Positions 522 through 63,347 of a DNA stretch of 64,000 nucleotides are shown one piece after another (the first letter of the stretch is position 1; every line of letters begins with the position of its first letter). This stretch comes from Microcoleus sp. bin48.metabat.b7b8b9.023. GTDB lineage: Bacteria; Cyanobacteriota; Cyanobacteriia; Cyanobacteriales; Microcoleaceae. The stretch is from the NCBI RefSeq assembly GCF_013299185.1, contig NZ_JAAFKG010000047.1:1-64000 (forward strand). Direction: 5' to 3'. Below the pieces are notes generated by a model. It saw only the letters and a program-made list of their open reading frames with translations. It did not search any database and was not told the origin of the DNA. The position numbers and the translations under genes are program-made.

Positions 522-3500
522 TTACCGTGCGGAAGGTAGCTTGAGTTCAATACCCACTTTTTGACCTAAATCGATCGCACTATTGGCAAAATCAGTCACG
601 CCAGCGACACCAATGCCGATCGCAGTAGCCGCCCCAATCATCGCAGTCAAGCTCTTCTTTAACCTAGCTTTACTCCATTGGCTTTCCGGCTTCTTGATTT
701 CCGCTTCGACATCTTCAATATCAATAATTACCCCTTCGCGGATGTCTTCGGGAAACTGCGTCGCGGTTTCGCGCATTGATGAAATTAGTTGCAGAATTTC
801 CGCAGTATTCGCGTTATTAATTGTAATGCCACCAGAGGCTGTTTGTTGCGCGTTGTCTTTCATTTCGTTGGCAAGCGCCATGCTGCCGATTTGTGCGCCG
901 GAAAAGTTGTTATTTTGAGGAGAATTAGTCATTTTTGCTTCTGCTTTATTAATAATAGGTCTACTAACTGCTAGTTTAGCGATATCTACAAGGTCATCAT
1001 ATTCTCTTCCGTATTTTTCATCGCCCATCTGCCTTCTGCGCCGAAGTTCGATCGACTCATAGCCATCCAACAACGGCCGCAAATCCCAACTCTTTTTAAG
1101 TTTCCCCACCCGCACCTTAGTCTCCCCCATCTCCTCCAATCCTAGCAACTCCTCGTAATCCAGCGGATCGGCATCGGGATAACCCGGAACCGGCACCCAT
1201 TGACTGATTTCCAGATTCGCAAAAGAATTGTGGATTTTGGTAAACGTATCCCGAATCATACTGAGAAAAGAACGCCGCGTCGATTCCCGCCCGCTAACCG
1301 CGATCGAGATTTTTTCATCTTCCGGATCAGACTTAATTCGGGCGATATTATACACCTCAGTGCCTTCCGTGTACTCCAGCATTACCCCCGTGCGCCAGTG
1401 GGTGCTGTTGTGGATTTTCTCGTGCATGAGGACGATGAAACGGGAGAGGATGCTGTCCGGGAGGATGCGGTAGTGATATTGAAATTCCAGGGTTTCGCCT
1501 TCGAGTTGGGTGTTTTCCGGTTCTTCTTTGGGCAAAATGCCGGGGATGAGGAAAGTCGGCGCGTGGCAATGGCTGAGGGGGAAGCAGAGTTGAAATTCGC
1601 CCATCAACTCGGTGAGGCAGTTGTAACGGTGGCTGGGATATTTAGTTGAATCCAGGATGCGGCTGAGATCGGCGTAGGTGAGAATGCCTTTAGTTTTGAC
1701 TTTGAGTGCCTCATCGCTGAGGAGGGCATAGATGCCTTCTGTCACCCAGTGGGGATTGAGAATGTTGGTGGATTGCAGGATGGGGTGTTCGCGGAAGTTG
1801 AGGACAATGCCCAGATTGTGCAGCAGTCCAAGTAGTTGGGTTTGATCGGTTTCTGCGAGGATGTTTTCGGTGGCGCAGATGGTGGCGTATTCGCTGATGC
1901 TGATGAAGTCTTTGTCGAGGTTTTCCAGGCGCTGCTTGACTTGGAACCAGCTTAGCGGCAAAAGGTCGTAAACTTCTTTGAGCTGGGAAATTTCGGTGTG
2001 GATGGCGCTGCGGAGTTCGTCGATTCCGGTGCCGCTTTGGCAGGAGGTTTCGATAATCGCTTTGATGTTGGGATATTTGTCGCGCAAGGCTTTGCGGTTG
2101 AGATCCAGGGGTTGTTCGTCGCACTTGTTGCCGACGAGGATGACGGGGGATGCGTCGCCGAAGCTTTCGATCAGTTTCAGCCAGTATTCGAGGCGGTTTT
2201 CGTCTTCGCTGGTGCGGCAGTTGGAGACTAGGAGGTAGAGGCTGCGTTTGGTGAGGAAAAATTGGTGGGTGGCGTGGTAGATTTCTTGTCCGCCGAAGTC
2301 CCAGACGTTGAGTTTGACTGGTTTGGTGTTAACTGTTATTTGCCAGTTTGTGATGTTGAGTCCGTCGGTTTGGGGTTCGTTGGGGTTGTATTGGTTGTGG
2401 GTGAGGCGGTTGATCAGGGAGGTTTTGCCGACGCTTCCTTGGCCGACGAGGAGGACTTTGGCTTCGTTGAGGGGGAGGACTTTGCCACTGCGGAGTTGGC
2501 GGATGTAGTTGAAGATGGCGGCGGGAGTACCGGGTTTTTCTCTCCAGTTGGCCGGCCCTAGAACTTCTGGAGAAATGGGTAGGGGATTGCGGCGGAGATC
2601 GAGTTTTTCAAGTTTTGGGAGGGTTTCTAAGCATTCGGGAATCTTTTCAATCTGATTGCTGCTGAGGTCAAGTTCTGTCAGATTGAATAATTTGGCGATC
2701 GTTTCTGGGATCTCAGTAATCTGATTATTATAGAGGTCAAGCCGTGTCAGATTTGACAGTAGGGCGATCGCTTCTGGGATCTCAGTAATCTGATTGTTAC
2801 TGAGGAAAAGGTGTGTCAGATTTGACAGTTGAGCAATCGCCTCTGGGATGACGGTAATGTTATTCTGACTGAGATAAAGCTGTGTCAGATTCGACAGTTG
2901 AGCGATCGCATCTGGGATGACGCTAATCTGATTGTAATTAAGGACAAGCCATGTCAGATTCGAGAGTTGGGCTATGGCATCTGGGATGACGCTAATCTGA
3001 TTATTCCAAAGGACAAGCTGTTTCAGATTCGAGAGTTGGGTGATCGCCTCGGGGATGTGTATTATCTGATTGAAACTGAGGTTAAGCTGTGTCAGATTCG
3101 AGAGTTGGGCGATCACCTCTGGGATTATGGTAATGTTATTCTGACTGAGGTCAAGTTCTGTCAGATTGGACAGTTGGGCTATCGCCTCTGGGATTACGGT
3201 AATCTGATTGTAACTGAGGTCAAGCTCTGTCAGATTCGACAGTTGAGCGATCGCCTCTGGGATGACGGTAATCTGATTATAACTAAGGTTAAGCTGTTTT
3301 ATGTTTGACAGTTGGTCAATTCTGTCCGGGATTTCTGGAATCTGATTGCCACCAAGGTTAACCTCCGTCAGGTTGAACAGTTTGCCGAGTATTTCCCAAA
3401 GCTTTGGTAACACTTCTAGGATATTTTCAATCTGATTAAAACTGATGTCAAGTTTTGTCAAATTGGATAATTTGCCGATCGCATCTGGAATTTCTGTTAA

Positions 3501-6604: not shown

Positions 6605-6727
6605 AAATGGCGATCGCAAAATCTACACTCTTAATACAGCCTCACCCTTTCTATCATCGGTTTGATGAGAAACTATCATGCGATCGACTTGTTCGCGGTG
6701 GCGATCGCTCCACCGATCGTATCAAAT

Positions 6728-7579
6728 TTACCTTAGAATCGGATTGCCCCGCAAATCGAGTTTTTCTAGATTCTCCATACAGTCGATCGCCCTTGGGATT
6801 GCTGTAATCTGATTATCATTCAGGTAAAGCTGTCTCAGATTCGACATTTGGGCGAGATTCTCAGGAATTTCTGTAATTTGATTGCTGCTGAGGTAAAGCT
6901 GTGACAGATTCGAGAGTTGGGCGAGATCCTCTGGAATTGCTGTAATCTGATTGTATCGCAGGTAAAGCTCTGTCAAATGCGACAATTGGGCGAGATCCTC
7001 TGGGATTACTGCAATCTGATTTTTACTGAGATTAAGCTGTATCAAATTCGCTAATTTTCCTAGCGCCTCTGGGATAGCGGCAATCTGATTGTTCGTGAGG
7101 TAAAGCTTTGTCAAATTCGACAATTGGGCGAGAGATTCTGGGATTTCGGCAATCTGATTATTATATAGGTCGAGGTCTGTCAGATTCGACAATTGGGCGA
7201 GAGAGTCTGGGATTTCGGTAATCTGATTGTAACTGAGATCGAGCAGTTTCAGCTTTGAGAGTTTTCCGAGTGCCTCGGGGATGACAGCAATCCGATTATT
7301 ATAGAGGTCAAGGTCTGTCAGATTCGATAGTTGGGCGATAAAATCTGGGATTGCTGCAATCTGATTGTAACTTAAGTCAAGCACTGACAGATGCGATAGT
7401 TGGCAGATAATTTCTGGGATTTCTGTTAAACCTATATTGCTTAAATCTAAACTTTCAAGCTGCGTACATTTGCCAATCTCCGGTGGCAATTCCGGCAAGT
7501 CCAATCCCGACAAATCAAGTTTTGTAAATTTTTTATCAGTAGCTAGATTAATTCGTCGTAGTGCTTCATCGCGCGTCAT
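6728..7579 (-). CDS. Leucine-rich repeat protein without GTPase domain
   Basis: 283 residues, almost entirely LRR: an N-terminal cap (MTRDEALRRINLATDK, then LPPEIGKCTQLESLDLS) and about ten 23-residue units of the form LSNLTDLDLYNNQIAEIPE. The end, MENLEKLDLRGNPILR, matches the point in the ROCO protein (LPKLEKLDLRRNPLP) where the LRR block gives way to the Roc GTPase. So it looks like a ROCO-type gene cut off at that junction, or a free-standing LRR adaptor. LRR blocks bind proteins; the partner is unknown. No signal peptide, so probably cytoplasmic. Confidence 0.88.
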   Translation of the reverse strand: MTRDEALRRINLATDKKFTKLDLSGLDLPELPPEIGKCTQLESLDLSNIGLTEIPEIICQLSHLSVLDLSYNQIAAIPDFIAQLSNLTDLDLYNNRIAVIPEALGKLSKLKLLDLSYNQITEIPDSLAQLSNLTDLDLYNNQIAEIPESLAQLSNLTKLYLTNNQIAAIPEALGKLANLIQLNLSKNQIAVIPEDLAQLSHLTELYLRYNQITAIPEDLAQLSNLSQLYLSSNQITEIPENLAQMSNLRQLYLNDNQITAIPRAIDCMENLEKLDLRGNPILR

Positions 7580-8478: not shown

Positions 8479-9366
8479 ATGAATCAAATTAAACGTGTTG
8501 CCATAGTGGGAGGAACCCACGGAAACGAACTCACAGGAGTATACCTTGTGAAGAAGTTCGATCGCGCGCCAGAGTTAATTGGGCGATCGACTTTTGAAAC
8601 AATTACCATGTTAGCCAATCCCCAAGCCTGCGAAATTGGCAGACGCTACATCGACATCGACCTCAACCGCTGCTTTCGCCAGCAAGATTTAGAAAATCCT
8701 CGCCTCTCCAGCTACGAAGCCCAGCGGGCGAAAGAAATATATCACATTTTTAGCTCAAAAAACACCGATCGACAAAGCTTAATCGTGGATTTGCACAGCA
8801 CCACATCGAACATGGGGCTAACATTTATTCTCGCCAGCCAGCATCCCTTTAACCTGCAACTAGCGGCTTATTTAACCTCTGTCTATCCTCACCTCAAGCT
8901 ACTGGCTTCGCCAAGCAACCATCAAGATAGTCCTTTGTTGCGATCGATTTCTGAGTTAGGCGGTACGCTGGAAGTTGGTGCAGTGCCGCAAGGCGTGTTA
9001 GATGCGTCTTTATTTCAGCAAACCGAGCAAGTTATTGGGACAATATTAGATTGCACAGAAGCCTACAATCTAGGCACAATGCCCGTTGTCAATAATTCCC
9101 TGACTATTTATCAAAGCATTCGGGCGATCGACTATCCGAGAAACAACTCTGGAGAAATTCAGGCAATGATTCATCCTCAGCTACAATCGAGGGATTATGA
9201 AGCCTTGAATCCGGGCGATCCGATGTTTTTGACCTTTGAGGGCGAGTCTGTCTTGTATGAAGGTACATCGACAGTATATCCAATTTTTATTAATGAGGCG
9301 GCTTACTACGAAAAAGGAATTGCCATGTGTTTTACCCAAAAGGAAATAGTTCTTCCTGGTTCGTAG
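8479..9366 (+). CDS. Aspartoacylase (N-acyl-aspartate amidohydrolase)
   Basis: 295 residues from MNQIKRVAIVGGTHGNE, the conserved beginning of the aspartoacylase/succinylglutamate desuccinylase (M14-related) family. Visible zinc ligands are His14 and Glu17 in GGTHGNELTG and the His of VDLHSTT; the catalytic Glu is in GGTLEVGAVPQG. It hydrolyses N-acetyl-aspartate to aspartate and acetate in the family; the substrate here is not known. I chose 8479 rather than an in-frame ATG at 8335 because the added 48 residues are encoded by repeat DNA. The last codons and the TAG stop lie inside the first unit of the hairpin array downstream (CTTCCTGGTTCGTAG), so the present C-terminus is repeat-derived. 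Confidence 0.9.
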   Translation: MNQIKRVAIVGGTHGNELTGVYLVKKFDRAPELIGRSTFETITMLANPQACEIGRRYIDIDLNRCFRQQDLENPRLSSYEAQRAKEIYHIFSSKNTDRQSLIVDLHSTTSNMGLTFILASQHPFNLQLAAYLTSVYPHLKLLASPSNHQDSPLLRSISELGGTLEVGAVPQGVLDASLFQQTEQVIGTILDCTEAYNLGTMPVVNNSLTIYQSIRAIDYPRNNSGEIQAMIHPQLQSRDYEALNPGDPMFLTFEGESVLYEGTSTVYPIFINEAAYYEKGIAMCFTQKEIVLPGS

Positions 9367-9953
9367 TGAGGACTTTAGTCCTTAAAAAAATAGTTCTTCA
9401 TGGTTCGTAGTGAGGACTTTAGTCCTTCTTAAATGGGGACTGAAGTCCTCACTACGAACCTTGCTCTTCCTGGTTCGTAGTGAGGACTTTAGTCCTTCTT
9501 AAATGGGGACTGAAGTCCTCACTACGAACCTTGCTCTTCCTGGTTCGTAGTGAGGACTTTAGTCCTTCTTAAATGCGGACTAAAGTCCTCACTACGAACC
9601 TTGCTCTTCCTGGTTCGTAGTGAGGACTTTAGTCCTTCTTAAATGGGGACTGAAGTCCTCACTACGAACCTTGTTCTTCCTGGTTCGTAGTGAGGACTTT
9701 AGTCCTTCTTAAATGAGGACTGAAGTCCTCACTACGAACCTTGTTCTTCCTGGTTCGTAGTGAGGACTTTAGTCCTTCTTAAATGGGGACTGAAGTCCTC
9801 ACTACGAACCTTGTTCTTCCTGGTTCGTAGTGAGGACTTTAGTCCTTCTTAAATGCGGACTAAAGTCCTCACTACGAACCTTGTTCTTCCTGGTTCGTAG
9901 TGAGGACTTTAGTCCTTCTTAAATGCGGACTAAAGTCCTCACTACGAACCTTG
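9357..9953. repeat. 70-base tandem array of perfect hairpins, eight full units plus one partial
   Basis: Full units begin at 9401, 9471, 9541, 9611, 9681, 9751, 9821 and 9891, exactly 70 bases apart, after a shortened unit at 9357. Each unit is a hairpin: GGTTCGTAGTGAGGACTTTA pairs with its complement after a short loop, then a 10-base linker. Units differ by one or two bases, often in compensating positions. The array fills the whole gap between the aspartoacylase stop and the PAP2 gene. There are no unique spacers, so it is not CRISPR. Related elements lie at 43450-43505 and 62866-63336. Confidence 0.95.
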
Positions 9954-9960
9954 ATTATGG

Positions 9961-10671
9961 TTATTTTTCAGCCATATTTTGATAGTCAGGTGACAAAAAC
10001 TTCTCTTCAGGAACAGGACGAGAATCATGAAACTGCTTCCATACTTTTAAACTAAGAATGCAAGCAAGCAGCCACACAAAACCCGCAATATAACCAGCAA
10101 TAACATCCGTAGGCCAGTGAACTCCGAGATAAAGCCGGCTCAAACCAATGCCAGCAATTAATACAACTGTCAAGCCGTAAATCAACCAGCGCTGTCTGGG
10201 AAAGCGCGCAGCCAAAAAATATCCTAGCAAACCGTAAACAACCATTGAAATCATTGCGTGTCCGCTAGGAAAACTGTAAAACTTTACCTCAACTGCACGC
10301 TCCCAAAGTTGAGGTCGATCGCGCGCAAAGAGTTGTTTTAAAAGCATATTTAAACCAACAGCCCCAGCGCCCGTAATTGCGATCGTTATGGCTTCCGATC
10401 GATGTTTTCGCACCCACAACATGATACCCAAACTCACGCTCAGCATCAGCAGCAAATTTGGTTCCCCCAAAGCTGTCAAGGCGAGCATGATGCGATCGCG
10501 CACCGGATCGTGCAGGCTCCTGAGATATAGTAAAATTGATTTATCGAAAGCGTCTGTTTCCGAGTCCAAAACCTCATGGGCAATGGTGGCAAATGCCCAC
10601 ATCGCCAAACCAGCAACAGCCAGCCCACCAAGCCGAATTATCGAAATTAGCGATCGAATTTTAGAGAGCAT
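9961..10671 (-). CDS. PAP2-superfamily membrane phosphatase
   Basis: 236 residues with about six hydrophobic segments and all three PAP2 signature motifs: KQLFARDRP (motif 1), PSGHAMIS (motif 2, catalytic His) and SRLYLGVHWPTD (motif 3). Members dephosphorylate lipid phosphates such as phosphatidate or undecaprenyl pyrophosphate at the membrane face; which substrate applies cannot be read from sequence. It is divergent from the M23 peptidase gene across about 160 bases, and both could act on envelope metabolism. Confidence 0.9.
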   Translation of the reverse strand: MLSKIRSLISIIRLGGLAVAGLAMWAFATIAHEVLDSETDAFDKSILLYLRSLHDPVRDRIMLALTALGEPNLLLMLSVSLGIMLWVRKHRSEAITIAITGAGAVGLNMLLKQLFARDRPQLWERAVEVKFYSFPSGHAMISMVVYGLLGYFLAARFPRQRWLIYGLTVVLIAGIGLSRLYLGVHWPTDVIAGYIAGFVWLLACILSLKVWKQFHDSRPVPEEKFLSPDYQNMAEK

Positions 10672-12057: not shown

Positions 12058-12142
12058 CGTGGTGAGGTATGCGTGCGATGCCTATGCCCTATGCCCCATG
12101 CCCTATGCGTACCTCATGTTAGTGAGAAAGGCTATACATCCC
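12058..12142. repeat. Short imperfect inverted-repeat element, left of the Uma2 gene
   Basis: Contains GAGGTATGC, a run of CTATGCCC steps, then GTACCTCAT and a GAGAAAGGCTATAC end. A matching element lies on the other side of the Uma2 gene at 12772-12858 (ATAGCCTTTCTC, GAGGTATGCCC, GTACCTCAT, AAGGCTATG). The region 11911-12183 also has CAGTTGA heptamers and a copy of the GTTGCCGAACTTCC repeat (about 12132-12178). Confidence 0.7.
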
Positions 12143-12183
12143 GTACATTGCTTGTTGCCGAACTTCCTTCTTCCTACCGAAGA

Positions 12184-13289: not shown

Positions 13290-15476
13290 ATGCAAGAAAT
13301 TCTTTATTTAGAAGTCCCCACACCGGATACAGCAGCCGTCTGCACTTGGTTGCAACAGGAATTCGATCCCGGAATCGGAGAAAAAATTATTACTCCTGAC
13401 GGTTTTCGCCTGCTTTCCAACGTCACAACAGCCGAATTGGTCAAATCTGGAGCTCAAAATGCTAATCTAAAACCGACATTCACTGGTAGCAATTCCGAAA
13501 ACCGCAATTCGCGATCGACAGAACTTTCGACCTTTGTCTGGTCAGTCCAGCGTACAACCTATCTAAAAGTCTTTCGTCTAGAAGACGCGCCCGCTGGAGA
13601 AAGAAAGTTCCTAGAAGCTCTGAATCTGGCTGTAAGAAACAAGTTTCCAGAGCGATACCCCCAACCCCCTGTCATAGACCTCTCCAAACAGTCAATTTTT
13701 GAAGCTCTTGCCCCCTATTACCCCCTCACCGTCAAATACTTCCAAAAAATGCCCAAAGGCGACTACGACCTACAGCGCGTCTACTGGTGGGAGCAGCGCT
13801 GGCGTGAAGGTACTCGCAATCCTCAAGCGCCAAAGCAAGTAGTGTTTTTGAAGGAAGAAGGTTCGGCAACGAGCACTGTACAAGATGTAGCGGATGTAAC
13901 GGATGTTAAGAAGAATGTAAAAAGTACAGTTGCGGTGTCCGATTCTAGGGATACTGTTTACGACTTGATTTATATTGGCGGGGCTTTGGGGGTAATTCAC
14001 GCCGCAGTCATGGCGAGATTGGGCTACCGAGTGCTGCTGCTGGAAAGAATGCCTTTCGGGCGGATGAATCGCGAGTGGAATATTTCGCGGGATGAAATTC
14101 AAAGCTTAATTGATTTGGGTTTGTTTACGGCTGCGGAAATCGAAACTTTGATTGCGCGAGAATACAAAGATGGCTATAACAAGTTTTTTGATGCTAACAA
14201 TCCGCCCGTTGCTCAAGCCCCAGTCCTGCACACGCCGAAGGTGCTGAATATAGCTTTAGATGGCGAGAAATTGCTGTATTTGGCGGGAGTTAAGCTAACA
14301 GAAGCTGGTGGGGAAATTTGGGACGAAACTGAGTTTGTTAGAGCCGATGTTGAAGCGAAAAAAGTAGTGGTTCAGGCCACCCACTTGCCGACAAAAGCCG
14401 ATCGCACAACCTCCGCCAGACTGCTCGTGGATGCCATGGGTTCAGCTTCTCCCATCGCTTGGCAATTGAACGGAGGGCGGGCGTTTGACAGCGTTTGCCC
14501 CACCGTCGGAGCTGTCATTGACGGAGGATTTGAGCCGGGAGTTTGGGATTCCGACTATGGGGATGTTCTCTACAGTCACGGCGATATCTCCCGGGGACGC
14601 CAACTCATTTGGGAACTGTTTCCCGCTGCTGGTGGAGAACTCACCGTTTATCTTTTTCACTACCACCAAGTACATCCCGAAAATCCCGGTTCTTTGCTAG
14701 AACTGTACGAGGACTTTTTCACTATTTTGCCGGAGTACCGCCGCTGCGATATCGACAAATTGGTGTGGAAAAAGCCGACTTTTGGTTATATTCCGGGGCA
14801 TTTTAGCAGCAACAGCAGCGATCGCGCCGTGGCAGTCGATCGCCTAATTGCGATCGGCGATGCAGCATCTTTGCAATCTCCATTAGTATTCACCGGTTTC
14901 GGCTCCCTCGTCCGCAATCTTTTCCGCTTAACTGACTTGTTGGATACAGCATTAAAACACGATTTATTAAGTGCCAATCACTTAAACCAAATCCGCGCTT
15001 ACCAGAGCAACGTGTCAGTAACTTGGCTGTTTTCTAAAGGGATGATGGTTCCCACCGGCCGCAGTTTGCCACCCCAGAGAATTAATTCAATTCTCAATAC
15101 CTTCTTCGGTATTTTGGCAGGACAAGAACTCACCGTAGCCGAAACTTTTATCAAAGATAGAGTCGATTGGCTAACTTTCAATCGATTGGCGATTGAAGCA
15201 GCCGGAAAAAATCCTTCTCTCCTGCTGTGGATTTTAGATTTTGTCACCTTGCGCGATGTTTGGCGCTGGTTGGGGAGTTACTTGACTTTTACTCTGTTGG
15301 CTTTAGCTAGTTGGTTGTTCGGATGGCTGCCCAGTTTCGCCCGCAAGGTACAGCCTTGGTTGGAACCCAGGTATCCGGGTGTTTGGTTGTGGCTGTTGGC
15401 TACCAGCTATGCTCTCACCTACGGTATGGGAAAGGGAAAAAAAGAGTTTTCAGTTGATAATTGTCGTCAGACTTAG
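13290..15476 (+). CDS. CruA/CruP-type lycopene cyclase family flavoprotein
   Basis: 728 residues. After a roughly 220-residue N-terminal region comes an FAD-binding Rossmann start (DLIYIGGALGVIHAA, near 224-238), then RMNREWNISRDE, a CruA/CruP hallmark. LLVDAMGSASPIAWQL and the FAD-contacting IAIGDAASLQSPLVFTGFG follow. The C-terminus has one or two hydrophobic segments (LTFTLLALASWLFGWLP). CruA-type enzymes cyclise lycopene in carotenoid synthesis; CruP paralogues have a less clear protective role. I cannot separate the two by eye. Residues about 188-207 (EEGSATSTV...DVTD) are encoded by a dispersed repeat inserted in frame just before the Rossmann fold, in a region that looks like a linker. 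Confidence 0.8.
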   Translation: MQEILYLEVPTPDTAAVCTWLQQEFDPGIGEKIITPDGFRLLSNVTTAELVKSGAQNANLKPTFTGSNSENRNSRSTELSTFVWSVQRTTYLKVFRLEDAPAGERKFLEALNLAVRNKFPERYPQPPVIDLSKQSIFEALAPYYPLTVKYFQKMPKGDYDLQRVYWWEQRWREGTRNPQAPKQVVFLKEEGSATSTVQDVADVTDVKKNVKSTVAVSDSRDTVYDLIYIGGALGVIHAAVMARLGYRVLLLERMPFGRMNREWNISRDEIQSLIDLGLFTAAEIETLIAREYKDGYNKFFDANNPPVAQAPVLHTPKVLNIALDGEKLLYLAGVKLTEAGGEIWDETEFVRADVEAKKVVVQATHLPTKADRTTSARLLVDAMGSASPIAWQLNGGRAFDSVCPTVGAVIDGGFEPGVWDSDYGDVLYSHGDISRGRQLIWELFPAAGGELTVYLFHYHQVHPENPGSLLELYEDFFTILPEYRRCDIDKLVWKKPTFGYIPGHFSSNSSDRAVAVDRLIAIGDAASLQSPLVFTGFGSLVRNLFRLTDLLDTALKHDLLSANHLNQIRAYQSNVSVTWLFSKGMMVPTGRSLPPQRINSILNTFFGILAGQELTVAETFIKDRVDWLTFNRLAIEAAGKNPSLLLWILDFVTLRDVWRWLGSYLTFTLLALASWLFGWLPSFARKVQPWLEPRYPGVWLWLLATSYALTYGMGKGKKEFSVDNCRQT
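13851..13915 (+). repeat. In-frame copy of a dispersed repeat inside the cyclase-like gene
   Basis: The sequence AAGGAAGAAGGTTCGGCAAC, followed by GAGCACTGTACAAGATGTAG and then CGGATGTAACGGATG, matches the ABC ATPase copy at 55164-55220 with only a few differences. Non-coding relatives lie at 12132-12178, 18076-18121, 35143-35285, 48962-49021 and 54288-54345. Its frame here adds EEGSATSTVQDVADVTD to the protein. Confidence 0.9.
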
Positions 15477-18057: not shown

Positions 18058-18121
18058 GTCTTCCTTCTTCCTCCTGGCATCCGTTACATCCGTTACAGAA
18101 TACGTTGCCGAACTTCCTTCG
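18058..18121 (-). repeat. Dispersed repeat, non-coding copy
   Basis: On the minus strand this reads GAAGGAAGTTCGGCAACGTA, then TTCTGTAACGGATGTAACGG, the family found in frame in two proteins (13851-13915 and 55164-55220). Here it lies between genes, ending five bases from the stop of the small gene at 18126. Confidence 0.85.
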
Positions 18122-20608: not shown

Positions 20609-20814
20609 AGCTTTTCTCCCAATTTTTTCTATAAGTCTTTACCCAGTCAGATGTGATGGTATCACGGAGTTTCTGTGCTGTGGGGTGAGAATCGGAGATT
20701 TAAATGAAATGCAACAGAGCTTAACAATTGGATACAAAAATGGGGTTTTTGATGCTGGTTTCTATGGAAAATCTTAAATTTTTTATGGTAGATGAATGCG
20801 GATGGACGCTAATG

Positions 20815-20894
20815 TGCGATCGAATTAAATACAGTGCGATCGAATTAAATACAGTGCGATCGAATTAAATACAGTGCGATCGAATTAAATACAG
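20815..20894. repeat. 20-base tandem repeat, four copies
   Basis: Four exact copies of TGCGATCGAATTAAATACAG, each holding a CGATCG core. The last copy runs into the left end of the inverted-repeat element at 20898. Part of the 558-base gap upstream of 21167. Confidence 0.93.
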
Positions 20895-35138: not shown

Positions 35139-35142
35139 GACA

Positions 35143-35285
35143 GAAGAAGGAAGTTCGGCAACGATCAATGTACAAGATGTAACGGATGTACAGGATGGAA
35201 GTCCGATGGAAGTCGGAAGAAGGAAGAAGTTCGGCAACGGATTTTGTAACGGATGTAACGAATGTAAGGGATGGAAGTCCGATGG
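35143..35285 (+). repeat. Dispersed repeat, two tandem non-coding copies
   Basis: Copies at about 35143-35210 and 35216-35285 each read GAAGGAAG(AA)GTTCGGCAAC, then GATGTAACGGATG steps, then GGAAGTCCGATGGAAGTCGG. Same family as the in-frame insertions at 13851 and 55164. Between rpsT and tatD. Confidence 0.85.
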
Positions 35286-47974: not shown

Positions 47975-49033
47975 GAGAGATACTCCCAACCAACAGGCGC
48001 AAGCGTTGGTTGCAATACGGTTTACATAAGGCAGATCCCCCCTAACCCCCCTTCCCAAGCAGGGTGGATTAATTGTCAGGATAGGAGATATAAAACTACC
48101 AAAAGTATCGCTCAAAGGTCGGCTCGCGCGATCGGCCAAGGTACGTAGTTGCGCGAAGAGCGCTCTTTATAAGATTAAGAAAGAGCGCAAAGATCGCAAC
48201 TACATACCTAATTTGTCTGACGACAATAAAACCACCCTGCCTAACCCCCCTTCCCAAGGGGAGTAGGGGGTGGGACAAGAAAGCTCTTAAGTCCCCCTAC
48301 AACCAGGGGGATGCGAGGGGGATCTCCGGGGCATAAAAAGTGTTAAGTAAACCGTATTGGGGTTGGTTGAAAAATCTTAAATTTTTGCTTTCAAAACTTA
48401 AAATTAAAAATTCACAGCCGAAAGTGCGATCGGCACATCAAATCGCCCGAAAAAAGAACGCAGAAGATATTCAGCCGCAGGCATAAATCAGAATTCAATA
48501 AAACTTGAAAATTAAAAATTTTAATTTTTTGAATCAACCTAAAATTAAAATTATTTCTCCCTTATAATACCAATTTAACAAATTAATACAACATTAGTTG
48601 TAGGCTGTGGATCCACGAAAAATTCGTAGCTATATATCGACAATTTGACAGAGCCGCACCTGACCACAATGGTACGATCGACCAAACACAACATTTATTG
48701 TGTCGCAATCTTTTGTCAAAATGGTATTATAAACACGCTCGCATTATTCAAGCCAGTCTGCGAAAATAACTATTTGTTCTGATGTGGGTTTAAGCACGAA
48801 TTCGTAGGTTAGATTGAACACTAGGTCTTTAAGAAATATCAAGACTTTTCTTAAAAAGTCGATCAAATAAAAGCCGTCCTAGAAGGACGGGGCTGAAGAA
48901 GCCAAGTTTTCGGTAAAAGACCGCTAACCCAAGCGTATTAAACTACAAACTTCGTGGCTTCCCTCCGTTACAGTTGTTACATCCGACAGCCGACGAATCC
49001 GTTGCTGAACTTCCTGCTTCAAATATGATTCGC
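47975..49033. other. Repeat-filled gap between rpoC2 and the response regulator
   Basis: No gene supported. Contains a nested inverted-repeat element (48013-48359), a second element with imperfect ends (about 48563-48732: TATAATACCAATTT and the inverse of TATAATACCATTTT), an IS200/IS605-style GCCGTCCTAGAAGGACGGGGC hairpin at about 48873-48893 (written in two halves, GCCGTCCT and AGGACGGGGC), and a GTTGCTGAACTTCC repeat copy at 48962-49021. Confidence 0.75.
48013..48359. mobile_element. Composite MITE-like element with inverted CAATACGGTTTAC ends
   Basis: The ends 48013-48025 (CAATACGGTTTAC) and 48347-48359 (GTAAACCGTATTG) are perfect 13-base inverses, extending to 17 with one mismatch. Within are two direct CCTAACCCCCCTTCCCAAG blocks and, between them, a hairpin element (48140-48232) related to that at 15466-15740. 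So one repeat appears to have inserted into another. No transposase. Confidence 0.72.
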
Positions 49034-54107: not shown

Positions 54108-54346
54108 TTATTGGGGATTGGGGATTGCGAATTGGGCGAAGCGAAGCGGAGGGATGGGGCATGGGGCATTAGCCAAACAGGTCATTGGGCGAAGCGAAGC
54201 GGAGGGATGGGGCATTGGGCATTGCGAATTGGGCATTGCGAATTGGGGATTAATCTGATTTCTTGTTTCTGACTTCTGAATTCAACATCCATCCGTTAAA
54301 TCAATTAAATCCCGTACACTGCTGATTGCGGAACTTCCTCCTTCAT
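54108..54346. repeat. GCATTGGGC / GAAGCGAAGCGGAGGGATG repeats after the topoisomerase gene
   Basis: Several copies of GCGAAGCGAAGCGGAGGGAT followed by GGGGCATTGGGCATT runs. The inverse of this arrangement is found at about 54580-54750, so the two regions could pair. A GTTGCGGAACTTCC-type repeat copy is at about 54288-54345. Confidence 0.8.
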
Positions 54347-54485
54347 TAGACCTCCTGCGAAAGTATTTTATCGATCCTTTAACAGTAGCCATTTCAGCCA
54401 TTATTAACTAATAATAAAAGATTGGCCAGACATACTGGTAATTATCGGTTCTGTCGATTAGGTGAGGACTTTCGCAGGAGGTCTA
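54347..54485. mobile_element. 139-base MITE with 18-base perfect terminal inverted repeats
   Basis: TAGACCTCCTGCGAAAGT (54347-54364) is perfectly inverted at 54468-54485. Counting the element as AGACC...GGTCT, it is flanked by ATT on each side, a possible 3-base target duplication. The inside is AT-rich with no ORF. Confidence 0.85.
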
Positions 54486-54772: not shown

Positions 54773-54777
54773 GTTTG

Positions 54778-56262
54778 ATGGCGCAAGTTGTATTAGAAAA
54801 TATCTACAAAAGTTTTCCCCTCCGCCAAGGAGAACAGGAAAAAGTAGCAAACAACGTCGCAGAAAGTGTCTCAACAGAGACTCCTAGCTCTTCGGCTAAC
54901 ACTGTTTTGCGGCGGATTAACCTGACCGTCCTAGACGGAGAATTCATGGTGTTGGTGGGGCCTTCGGGCTGCGGAAAAAGCACTTTGCTGCGATCGATCG
55001 CCGGTTTGGAAGTTTTGACAGCCGGCAATATCTGGATTGGCGATCGGCTCGTTAACGATTTGCCTCCAAAAGACCGAGATATCGCTATGGTATTTCAAAA
55101 TTATGCTCTCTATCCTCACTTAACAGTCTACGATAATCTCGCCTTTGGATTGCGCCGCTCACAGAAGGAAGAAGGTTCGGCAACGAGCACTGTACGGGAT
55201 TTAACGGATGTAACGGATAGAACGAACAAGGTAAAAGAGAGAAGGAAAAAGGAAAATGTTAAAAGGAAGCAGCTAGAAGTTAGCGGGTATTCAGTAGAAG
55301 AGAAAGAGAAAGATCAAGACAAAACAAGCAGTGAGAAGGCAAAAGAAATTAAAAATCAAATAAAAAAGGCGATCGATTATTTAACTTCTAATACTGTAAA
55401 CAAGGAGCGAATATATACTTTAGGGGAGGACTTTTTAGTGGGAGCAACTCGCAAGCTTCCTCCGGGTTTACGCTATTTGTCTGAACGGGAAAAGGCGGTA
55501 GGAGAACGAGTTCTGAAGGTAGCTCAATTATTGCAAATAGAACCGCTTTTAAATCGCTTTCCGAAACAACTTTCGGGAGGACAAAAGCAGCGGGTGGCTT
55601 TGGGTAGGGCGATGGCTCGAAATCCTGAAGTGTTTTTGATGGACGAACCGCTATCGAATCTTGATGCGAAGTTGAGGGCGGAAACTCGATCGCAAATTGT
55701 GCAGTTACAGCGGCAGTTGGGCACTACTACTATTTATGTGACTCACGACCAAACTGAGGCGATGACTATGGGCGATCGCATTGCTATTATGAATGCTGGC
55801 CAGCTTCAGCAAGTCGCTAAGCCTCTGGAGCTTTACAACAAGCCGGCGAATCTATTTGTGGCTGAGTTTATTGGTTCTCCGCCGATGAATTTTTTGCCCG
55901 TGCAGTTTACCGCCCCGCTGTTGATTTCTCACCCGCAATTTCGCTTTACTTTACCAGATATTTGGGCGAAAAATCTACAAAAATATGACGGGCGAGGACT
56001 GATTTTGGGCATTCGCCCGGAACATCTCAGCATCAACCCTCCTGCTACCAAAAATCTGTCTGTACAAGTGGAAATTGTGGAGGCTTTGGGACACGAAACT
56101 TATTTGCGGGTGTGTTTGACTGACGATCCGGCTGTGCGGATGCAGGTGCGGGTGCCTCCCGATCGATCGATCCGTGTTGGCGAAGAGCTTTGGTTGGCGA
56201 TCGCCCATGACAAAATTCACTTATTCGATCCTGATAACGAATTGGCGATTTTTCCTCGGTAG
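54778..56262 (+). CDS. MalK/UgpC-type ABC transporter ATPase with a large insertion
   Basis: 494 residues. Walker A GPSGCGKST, Q-loop VFQNYALYPH, signature LSGGQKQRVALGRA, Walker B VFLMDEPLSNLD, His-switch YVTHDQTEAM, and a C-terminal TOBE/OB region (LGIRPEHLSI). It would drive a sugar or glycerol-phosphate importer; no permease or binding protein is nearby. Between Q-loop and signature there are about 160 residues rather than about 50: first the repeat-encoded EEGSATSTVRDLTDVTD (about 129-150), then a Lys/Glu-rich stretch, then a conserved-looking LPPGLRYLSEREKAV. The ATG at 54778 was preferred over a TTG one codon earlier. Confidence 0.9.
   Translation: MAQVVLENIYKSFPLRQGEQEKVANNVAESVSTETPSSSANTVLRRINLTVLDGEFMVLVGPSGCGKSTLLRSIAGLEVLTAGNIWIGDRLVNDLPPKDRDIAMVFQNYALYPHLTVYDNLAFGLRRSQKEEGSATSTVRDLTDVTDRTNKVKERRKKENVKRKQLEVSGYSVEEKEKDQDKTSSEKAKEIKNQIKKAIDYLTSNTVNKERIYTLGEDFLVGATRKLPPGLRYLSEREKAVGERVLKVAQLLQIEPLLNRFPKQLSGGQKQRVALGRAMARNPEVFLMDEPLSNLDAKLRAETRSQIVQLQRQLGTTTIYVTHDQTEAMTMGDRIAIMNAGQLQQVAKPLELYNKPANLFVAEFIGSPPMNFLPVQFTAPLLISHPQFRFTLPDIWAKNLQKYDGRGLILGIRPEHLSINPPATKNLSVQVEIVEALGHETYLRVCLTDDPAVRMQVRVPPDRSIRVGEELWLAIAHDKIHLFDPDNELAIFPR
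55164..55220 (+). repeat. In-frame copy of the dispersed repeat inside the ABC ATPase gene
   Basis: GAAGGAAGAAGGTTCGGCAA then CGAGCACTGTACGGGATTTA and ACGGATGTAACGGAT. It is nearly the same as the cyclase-gene copy at 13851-13915 and in the same reading frame relative to the repeat, giving KEEGSATSTVRDLTDVTD. Confidence 0.92.
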
Positions 56263-62844: not shown

Positions 62845-62865
62845 CTTTTGCGTTTTGTTCTTAAA

Positions 62866-63336
62866 CGGTTCGTAGTGAGGACTTTAGTCCTCGGGAAGGA
62901 AAGGACTGAAGTCCTCACTACGAACCTTTTTAGGGCTTTACGGTTTTTTGGGGGGGGAAGGACTAAAGTCCTTACTACGAACCTTGATCCGAAGCTTGTT
63001 CTAGTTGTTCTTAAACGGTTCGTAGTGAGGACTTTAGTCCTCGGGAAAGAAAGGACTGAAGTCCTCACTACGAACCTTTTTAGGGCTTTACGGTTTTTTT
63101 TGGGGGGGAAAGGACTAAAGTCCTCACTACGAACCTTGATTTGAAGCTTTTTTAGAGCTTTACTGTTGGGAAAAGAACGGACTGAAGTCCTTACTACGAA
63201 CCTTAATCTAAAGCTTTTTTAGAGCTTTACTGTTAGGGAGGAAAAGGACTAAAGTCCTCACTACGAACCTTGATTTGAAGCTTTTTTAGAGCTTTACTGT
63301 TGGGAAAAGAACGGACTGAAGTCCTCACTACGAACC
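62866..63336. repeat. Second array of GGTTCGTAGTGAGGACTTTA hairpins
   Basis: Two full hairpins (from about 62866 and 63016) and about five half-units, with linkers of TTTTTAGGGCTTTACGG or TTTTTTAGAGCTTTACTG. Same arms as 9357-9953 but less regular, so probably an older array. It fills the 503-base gap; no gene. Confidence 0.9.
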
Positions 63337-63347
63337 AATCTTGCCTA

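Follow-up and report, generated by a model that had tools for sequence, protein, structure and literature searches.

How does one short dispersed repeat come to be translated, in the same reading frame, within unrelated proteins? The question arises from a 64-kb stretch of DNA (the window) in the 7.5 Mb, 125-contig genome of a Microcoleus sp. (GCF_013299185.1), where a repeat of about 45–60 bp lies in frame both in a CruA/CruP-like gene and in the gene of an ABC transporter ATPase. The first copy (13850..13908, plus strand, subtype A, 59.5 bits against our model R1) adds the peptide KEEGSATSTVQDVADVTDVK to an open reading frame (ORF) of 728 amino acids (13290..15476, plus strand), and the second (55164..55222, plus strand, subtype A, 64.3 bits) adds KEEGSATSTVRDLTDVTD to an ORF of 495 amino acids (54775..56262, plus strand; starts TTG at 54775 and ATG at 54778). 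By BLAST the two copies align with 86% identity over 73 nucleotides (nt) (E 2.4e-18), and they share their reading frame, giving the peptides KEEGSATSTVQDVADVTD and KEEGSATSTVRDLTDVTD, which bears out the original prediction of one repeat read in one frame in both genes. These two genes are part of a wider pattern, and the donation of a peptide to proteins by a dispersed repeat is real and well documented in Microcoleus.

A BLAST search with the first copy returned 43 matches in the genome with 74–100% identity. With a sequence-only model built from 41 aligned copies, and with the best 150 of 2368 candidates scored at a threshold of E <= 1e-3, we counted at least 118 copies in 105 clusters. 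Flanks of up to 2 kb per side (at least 700 nt except at contig ends) were analyzed, and a copy was called genic when one frame ran through it with at least 40 codons and a codon score of at least 3 on both sides. This placed 25 of the 118 copies in genes, at 22 loci, and left 93 model copies outside genes. The frame that yields (EEG)SSAT..V.DVTDVTD, that is (EEG)SSATSNVRDVTDVTD (the SAT frame), is the only one used at 17 of the 22 genic loci; the two copies of locus L078 are split between this frame and the other sense frame, the latter (KFGNGFCNG) being the one used at L040 and L096, and L100 and L113 carry antisense copies. If five open frames were equally used (1/5 each), the SAT frame at 18 of 22 loci would have a probability of about 8e-10, and varying the thresholds gave 14–21 SAT copies against 5–7 others.

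About twenty unrelated proteins thus have the repeat within their coding sequence, with one frame used almost every time, and EEGSATSTV-like peptides do occur in other Pfam and NCBIfam families, which had been named as a result that would support the idea. In this genome the named hosts comprise the MalK/UgpC-type ATPase, cobyrinic acid a,c-diamide synthase CobB, a TrmJ-family methyltransferase, apolipoprotein N-acyltransferase (Lnt), an EgtB-like enzyme (under the family cut-off), a TIGR03960/TIGR03936 radical SAM fusion, a GH116 enzyme, ComEC (Competence domain), a TPR-GT61 protein, a GT2/GT4 glycosyltransferase, a GGDEF/EAL protein, a hybrid histidine kinase, and an RNase_H_2 protein. An Orn/Lys/Arg decarboxylase (L040) and a poly(A) polymerase-domain protein are hosts that use the other sense frame. 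In the decarboxylase, one and the same linker can be read in both ways: here the repeat is in the KFGN frame, and a Microcoleus orthologue (L334) has it in the SAT frame. The naming scan covered the loci other than L078, L100, L113, and L125, and L021 and L034, like the CruP-like protein, received no family name at the Pfam and NCBIfam thresholds used.

The two hosts in the window differ in how well they can be named. The 728-residue protein has same-genus orthologues, the best of them 84–95% identical, and matches nothing in Pfam at E 1e-3 or in NCBIfam at E 1e-10; its putative CruA/CruP name was taken from the original prediction. The 495-residue protein carries ABC_tran, OB_MalK, and TOBE_2 domains (Pfam) and scores 427.3 bits against PRK11650/UgpC, slightly under the NCBIfam cut-off of 432. 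Both copies had been described as lying in linkers. This was borne out by comparison with orthologues for the CruP-like protein, whereas the copy in the ATPase falls within the Pfam ABC_tran match (45–293) and not between domains. Comparison with MalK structures places it in a loop of 111 amino acids, the same loop being 5 amino acids long in MalK 1g29.

Is the frame bias a property of the repeat or of its hosts? It had been suggested that the element avoids stop codons in one frame. Among 69 copies outside genes, the SAT frame was open over 51 nt in 56; the counts were 59, 51, and 49 for the antisense frames, 43 for the other sense frame, and 8 for the third sense frame. As five of the six frames are usually open in non-genic copies, we rejected a special avoidance of stops in the SAT frame, and the preference seen in genes is better explained by what host proteins tolerate. 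Consistent with this, order-promoting residues are scarcest in the SAT frame among the five open frames (a share of 0.19–0.24 as compared to 0.41–0.59; the antisense shares are for subtype A only).

We then asked whether the segment might be ancestral protein sequence, the outcome that would have undone the idea of an insertion. Orthologous linkers of six hosts were recounted by script, a linker being scored as carrying the repeat when its distance to the nearer of two 34-nt subtype consensus sequences was 6 mismatches or fewer; 600 random 150-nt segments gave 13–21 mismatches, apart from one that was a real copy. Within the genus, the repeat is present in 7 of 23 CruP-like linkers, 8 of 19 in CobB, 5 of 16 in TrmJ, 3 of 18 in the ABC ATPase, 9 of 15 in GT61 (eight in the SAT frame and one in the other sense frame), and 10 of 16 in ComEC. 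This amounts to 42 of 107 linkers, or 36 of 101 once our own genome, chosen for having the repeat, is removed. Outside the genus, where CruP-like, CobB, TrmJ, and ABC proteins were compared (GT61 and ComEC were compared within the genus only), none of 33 linkers carries it (0/6, 0/10, 0/10, and 0/7, respectively). The CobB loop measures 75–192 nt in the genus and 18–42 nt outside it, except in L158 (60 nt) and L156 (183 nt). The rearranged GT61 linker L406 (14 mismatches) and the degenerate L196, L151, and L155 (8, 9, and 12 mismatches) were not counted as present; the more distant ABC paralogues L221–L224, which have no loop, were left out, and L071, L154, L172, L177, L183, L194, L213, L403, and L443 were dropped for missing flank. 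Judged from these alignments, the segment is not ancestral protein sequence.

The repeat extends to relatives of this genome. In a collection of named species we found at least 112 matching stretches; the 80 matches listed belong to Microcoleus, Tychonema, a Lyngbya strain, Oscillatoriales, Microcoleaceae, or unspecified cyanobacterial metagenome-assembled genomes, and one contig labelled Pseudanabaena, and the stored list of matching stretches adds the filamentous cyanobacterium ‘Phorm 6’. The 112 named loci hold 128 pattern copies, of which, by the criterion used for this genome, 14 are genic (at 13 loci), 95 are non-genic, and 19 are undecidable at locus edges. All 14 genic copies are in the SAT frame. 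Eight of the 13 named host ORFs are orthologous to hosts of this genome (75–91% identical), so the two sets overlap and are not independent. The other five add UvrC (L258), an SNF2 helicase (L262), and an Opp/Dpp-type ATPase (L227, L270), the fifth host ORF being that of L327. In a sample of the phylum, the model matched 9 of 386 genomes at E <= 1e-6, our own included: seven belong to the same genus, one, with three weak matches, to another genus of the family, and one, with a single match at E 3e-9, to the same order. The best 13 candidates per genome were scored here, so that per-genome counts are minima. As far as searched, the repeat thus appears almost restricted to Microcoleus and close relatives.

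What occupies these linkers when the repeat does not? Where the SAT repeat is missing from a linker, inspection by eye mostly shows other repeats of these genomes, translated in their turn. For example, GGAAGAA heptamers are read as EEGRRKK or EEGRGKK, CCCAATG-type repeats as IPNSQFPIPNSQ, CAGTTGT as SVVSCQLSVVS, CTCCCCC-type repeats as SPPLPLSQSPP, and CCCCCCAAGGGGGG-type repeats as TPPYPPQGGKK. We compared our genome with 1.19 Mb of G008, the genome of a close relative whose CruP-like protein is 95% identical in amino-acid sequence. Of the 105 sites, 24 could be aligned on both sides, 19 of them with a typed copy in our genome; our copies at sites 50, 72, 79, 80, and 102 are untyped and stand outside the 19, and those at 72 and 79 are shared by eye. 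At the 19 typed sites G008 keeps the repeat at seven (four of the same subtype and three of the other), and 12 are without it. At 10 of these 12 sites, including those in the CruP-like, ABC, and CobB genes, its place is taken by a GGAAGAA-type tract, while the same pattern was met in 82 of 20,000 random G008 segments of equal lengths, and strict tracts of three heptamer units number 39 in the 1.19 Mb. A simple insertion at a clean site, as had been supposed, is therefore not supported by the relatives; the alternative state is usually another repeat, mostly a GGAAGAA array.

Subtypes also change between genomes. Comparing this genome with the named loci, which were chosen for carrying copies, gave 27 site pairs, of which 13 have the same subtype, one an overlapping type, eight the other subtype (six of these with a typed copy in this genome), and five were scored absent, among them site 1, where a variant copy is visible. 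Heptamer tracts accompany the repeat itself. Among the 92 copies with a recognisable core (26 of the 118 are without one, and 11 of the 92 are untyped), a tract lies upstream in 28 and downstream in 26, and 183 control places at a distance of 900 nt had none. Orthologues of GT61 and ComEC show the heptamer array joined to the host at the same GGAAG as the repeat.

Other translated repeats were observed in these linkers. A repeat coding for TPPYPPQGGKK or PPLPPPRGEKK, with CCCCCC-AAGGGGGG arms, lies in linkers L150, L152, L170, L171, and L412 (CobB, TrmJ, and GT61); it looks dispersed, is translated in frame, and looks palindromic, unlike the SAT repeat. CCCAATG/CCAATTC-type heptamer arrays are read as IPNSQFPIPNAQFP in L018, L399, L169, and L067. 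As L067 is a CruP-like orthologue from outside the genus, heptamer-filled linkers are not limited to one genus. In L147, L174, L405, and L439, these linkers contain a further translated repeat, which is CTTCGACTTCGCTCAGGGTAC-like (PSTSLRVQRMPFDFAQGTKK, LRLRSGYKEG).

The structure of the repeat bears on how it might move. It is made of a specific core, TTCGGCAACG...GTAACGGATGTAACGGAT, with 9-bp units, and occurs as two subtypes, A (AGCAATGTACGGGAT) and B (GATTCTGTAACGGAT). Its left junction, GGAAG|TTCGG, is exact in 60 of 92 copies, and GGAAG is the unit of a purine-rich array of heptamers, (GGAAGAA)n. On the right it ends in a variable run of the nonamer GTAACGGAT, some nonamers containing GTAG. 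This end is not fixed, the last nonamer being followed by 25 or more different hexamers. The original prediction had likened the repeat to palindromic elements. Folding of six copies gave z-scores of −1.60 to +0.39, without a significant stem; neither a stem-loop of the repetitive extragenic palindromic (REP) type nor the paired ends expected of terminal inverted repeats of the miniature inverted-repeat transposable element type were seen in these six folds. The sole hairpin is a GCAA-capped one of 5 bp at the left end, paired in 97.6% of alignment cells with no two-sided changes. The folds and these pair counts rule out a palindromic element. The hairpin, GTTCG-GCAA-CGAGC/CGGAT, is kept in both subtypes (alignment A1, columns 15–19 with 24–28, starting at 13861 of the window in the first row); three of its five 3' positions differ, all by transitions that keep standard or G-U pairs, which is weak evidence for its conservation.

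We also considered a longer unit ending in the hairpin TCCGATGGAAGTCGGA and rejected it. Of 69 copies that do not count as genic, 7 have this hairpin nearby (among the seven, the second copy of L013 shares its ORF with a genic copy); of 23 genic copies none has it, and in G008 the repeat core lies upstream of 2 of 22 strand-wise matches to the hairpin pattern, each place being counted on both strands. Being so rare near copies, it is not part of most elements.

Taking together the many copies, the turnover of sites, the presence in frame in about twenty genes, the single-frame bias, the alternation with arrays, and the switching of subtypes, all of which were observed, we propose that a genus-specific, non-palindromic repeat is exchanged between GGAAGAA-type arrays and is kept in genes as a tolerated, probably disordered loop; we put the probability of this reading at roughly 70%. 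The array-based mode of spread is probable on the sequence comparisons at hand. The junctions and subtype differences suggest that the repeat would be copied from one dispersed GGAAGAA-type array to another, perhaps by template switching or by ectopic gene conversion via the shared flank, and not moved by cut-and-paste transposition. Inside genes, the array may act as a landing pad, because (GGAAGAA)n is free of stops in all purine-strand frames and encodes the charged linker EEGRRKK. Selection would then retain inserts that preserve the frame and give a Ser/Thr/Asp-rich peptide in a tolerant loop. The host protein would probably just gain length in a disordered linker, a near-neutral change that serves no dedicated function. 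A broader form of the proposal, in which a genome-wide repeat economy has its exchange sites in protein linkers, arrays are frame-tolerant landing pads, and the SAT repeat and others are copied in and out by homology, is one we hold tentatively, at a little short of even odds.

Several observations weigh against the main proposal. No transfer event was seen, so that copying between arrays is deduced from its products. As many as 64 of 92 copies have no heptamer tract within 60 nt upstream, meaning that arrays are not required, and G008 has no GGAAGAA tract at two of the 12 sites that lack the repeat (sites 35 and 44). The GGAAG left junction and the small left-end hairpin could instead be ends recognised by an enzyme. 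On the side of the protein, both structure models have a predicted local distance difference test (pLDDT) score of 35 and are unusable, which leaves the disorder of the linker putative. The mean hydropathy of the other sense frame (−1.19 and −0.86) is below that of the SAT frame (−0.76 and −0.58), so hydrophilicity alone does not explain the choice of frame. The peptide is not strictly required either, given the non-SAT copies at L040 and L096, one in L078, L407 of a relative, and the antisense L100 and L113. Linker length is not divisible by three in 4 of the 107 in-genus linkers (L069, L152, L155, L439); none of these is among the 42 with the repeat, L155 has a degenerate copy, and assembly or alignment error is possible. 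Finally, the contrast between SAT and non-SAT linkers lies mostly within one genus, and orthologues are not independent events.

The junction and the hairpin would fit a small non-autonomous mobile element, one moved by a candidate single-strand HUH/Y1 transposase (like that of IS200/IS605, or a REP-associated tyrosine transposase, RAYT) or by another transposase that cuts 3' of GGAAG, with arrays as frequent targets. The lack of significant long inverted repeats in the six folds and the GGAAG shared by heptamers and repeat in GT61 and ComEC orthologues would fit such an element as well. However, the right end of the repeat is not fixed, and a single insertion would not be expected to leave one site with different subtypes in different genomes. 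The sites compared included no clean empty one, and within arrays GGAAG stands on both sides, which bears on any target-site duplication. We regard this explanation as doubtful, though serious enough to be kept in mind.

A function of the SAT peptide itself, for example as a protease, localisation, or phosphorylation tag whose usefulness keeps the frame, would account for the strong single-frame bias and for the recurrence in many proteins. However, presence is polymorphic in all six hosts (from 3 of 18 to 10 of 16 same-genus linkers), the hosts come from unrelated families, and unrelated repeats with other peptides occupy the same linkers; moreover, the frame bias can be read as selection against the other frames, for which a useful peptide is not needed. 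Such a function is improbable. An ordinary fast-evolving, low-complexity linker shaped by local drift or slippage, its likeness to intergenic repeats being convergence, would suit the hypervariable linkers with their slippage-prone heptamers and nonamers, but it is in the main refuted by the shared core and has next to no chance of being right, since local slippage cannot have independently made at 22 loci a specific core that is common to the 93 non-genic copies and the 43 BLAST matches and that lies 0–6 mismatches from the 34-nt consensus in linkers as compared to 13–21 in random segments.

The window also has copies outside genes. The model places eight copies in it, the two genic ones and six others, none of which counts as genic by the criterion used here; by that measure the prediction of at least five further non-coding copies is borne out. 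Two stand in tandem on the plus strand, at 35140..35200, followed by GGAAGTCCGATGGAAGTCGGAAG, and at 35217..35276. Four are on the minus strand: a copy at 18072..18121, where G008 has a GGAAGAA tract at the same place, a partial copy at 12135..12176, a degenerate copy at 48959..49021 that G008 has too, and a degenerate copy at 54288..54347, in a repeat-rich stretch upstream of the ABC gene. The window also contains other repeats: two mutually related (at least 60% identity) direct-repeat arrays with a 69-bp period at 2558–3431 and 6715–7497, arrays with a period of roughly 57–93 bp (70 bp in the first) and the common unit GGACTAAAGTCCTCACTACGAACC at 9253–10092 and 62855–63341, and a perfect tandem repeat of GTGCGATCGAATTAAATACA (20 bp) at 20814–20893.

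Among known systems, the palindromic elements of Rickettsia, which have a preferred reading frame, come closest. They are dispersed repeats of about 150 bp that lie in frame in unrelated ORFs and add a peptide to apparently working proteins (PMC10969869). The Microcoleus repeat resembles them in its in-frame residence in unrelated genes, and also in being absent from the same protein in related species. It differs in being shorter and not palindromic, in being often joined to GGAAGAA arrays, and in giving way to other repeats at its sites in sister species. It works like the Rickettsia elements but is not one of them. Intragenic REP elements with GTAG/CGTC tags have been described in Opitutus terrae, R. 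conorii, Thauera, and others, many of them encoding 20–30 amino acids, and the hosts are often repair enzymes (PMC3733652). The Microcoleus repeat is likewise a short repeat within ORFs, with UvrC as one of its hosts; REPs are stem-loops with tetranucleotide tags, some RAYT-linked, and the Microcoleus repeat has no such stem. PARCEL repeats (PMC2996958), cyanobacterial HIP sites (PMC4390886), and REPINs (PMC3116915) belong to the related literature.

Cyanobacteria have a repeat class of heptamer arrays, the short tandemly repeated repetitive (STRR) sequences. The heptamers found beside the repeat or in its stead (the GGAAGAA, CCCAATG, CAGTTGT, and CTCCCCC types) resemble this class, but the core itself is a specific sequence with nonamers and is not made of head-to-tail 7-bp units. 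No report of STRR-type arrays translated in proteins was found in the literature searched. Small dispersed repeats of Nostoc, reportedly described by Elhai in 2008, are likewise very short, dispersed, and cyanobacterial. In the literature searched, subscription papers being outside its reach, neither this repeat nor in-frame repeats of the genus Microcoleus were found described, including in two Microcoleus/Tychonema genome papers (PMC8546630 and PMC9958718). In-frame repeats in proteins of Rickettsia and some REP-rich bacteria are thus already known; what is new is a large-genome cyanobacterial genus, a non-palindromic repeat, and about twenty genes, including those of conserved enzymes.

Since repeats of other kinds occupy these loops in sister species, protein linkers in these mat-forming cyanobacteria are being rewritten by genomic repeats. 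Many sister species with alternative states of the same orthologues have been sequenced, which makes it testable how selfish or slippage-prone DNA becomes protein and which protein loops tolerate repeat-derived sequence. The natural variants of CobB, TrmJ, the MalK-type ATPase, ComEC, and Lnt are a ready map of sites that tolerate insertion. If the view of a genome-wide repeat economy is true, one loop of an enzyme would hold different repeat-derived peptides in sister species, and there would be a general route, without a transposase, from intergenic repeat to protein sequence.

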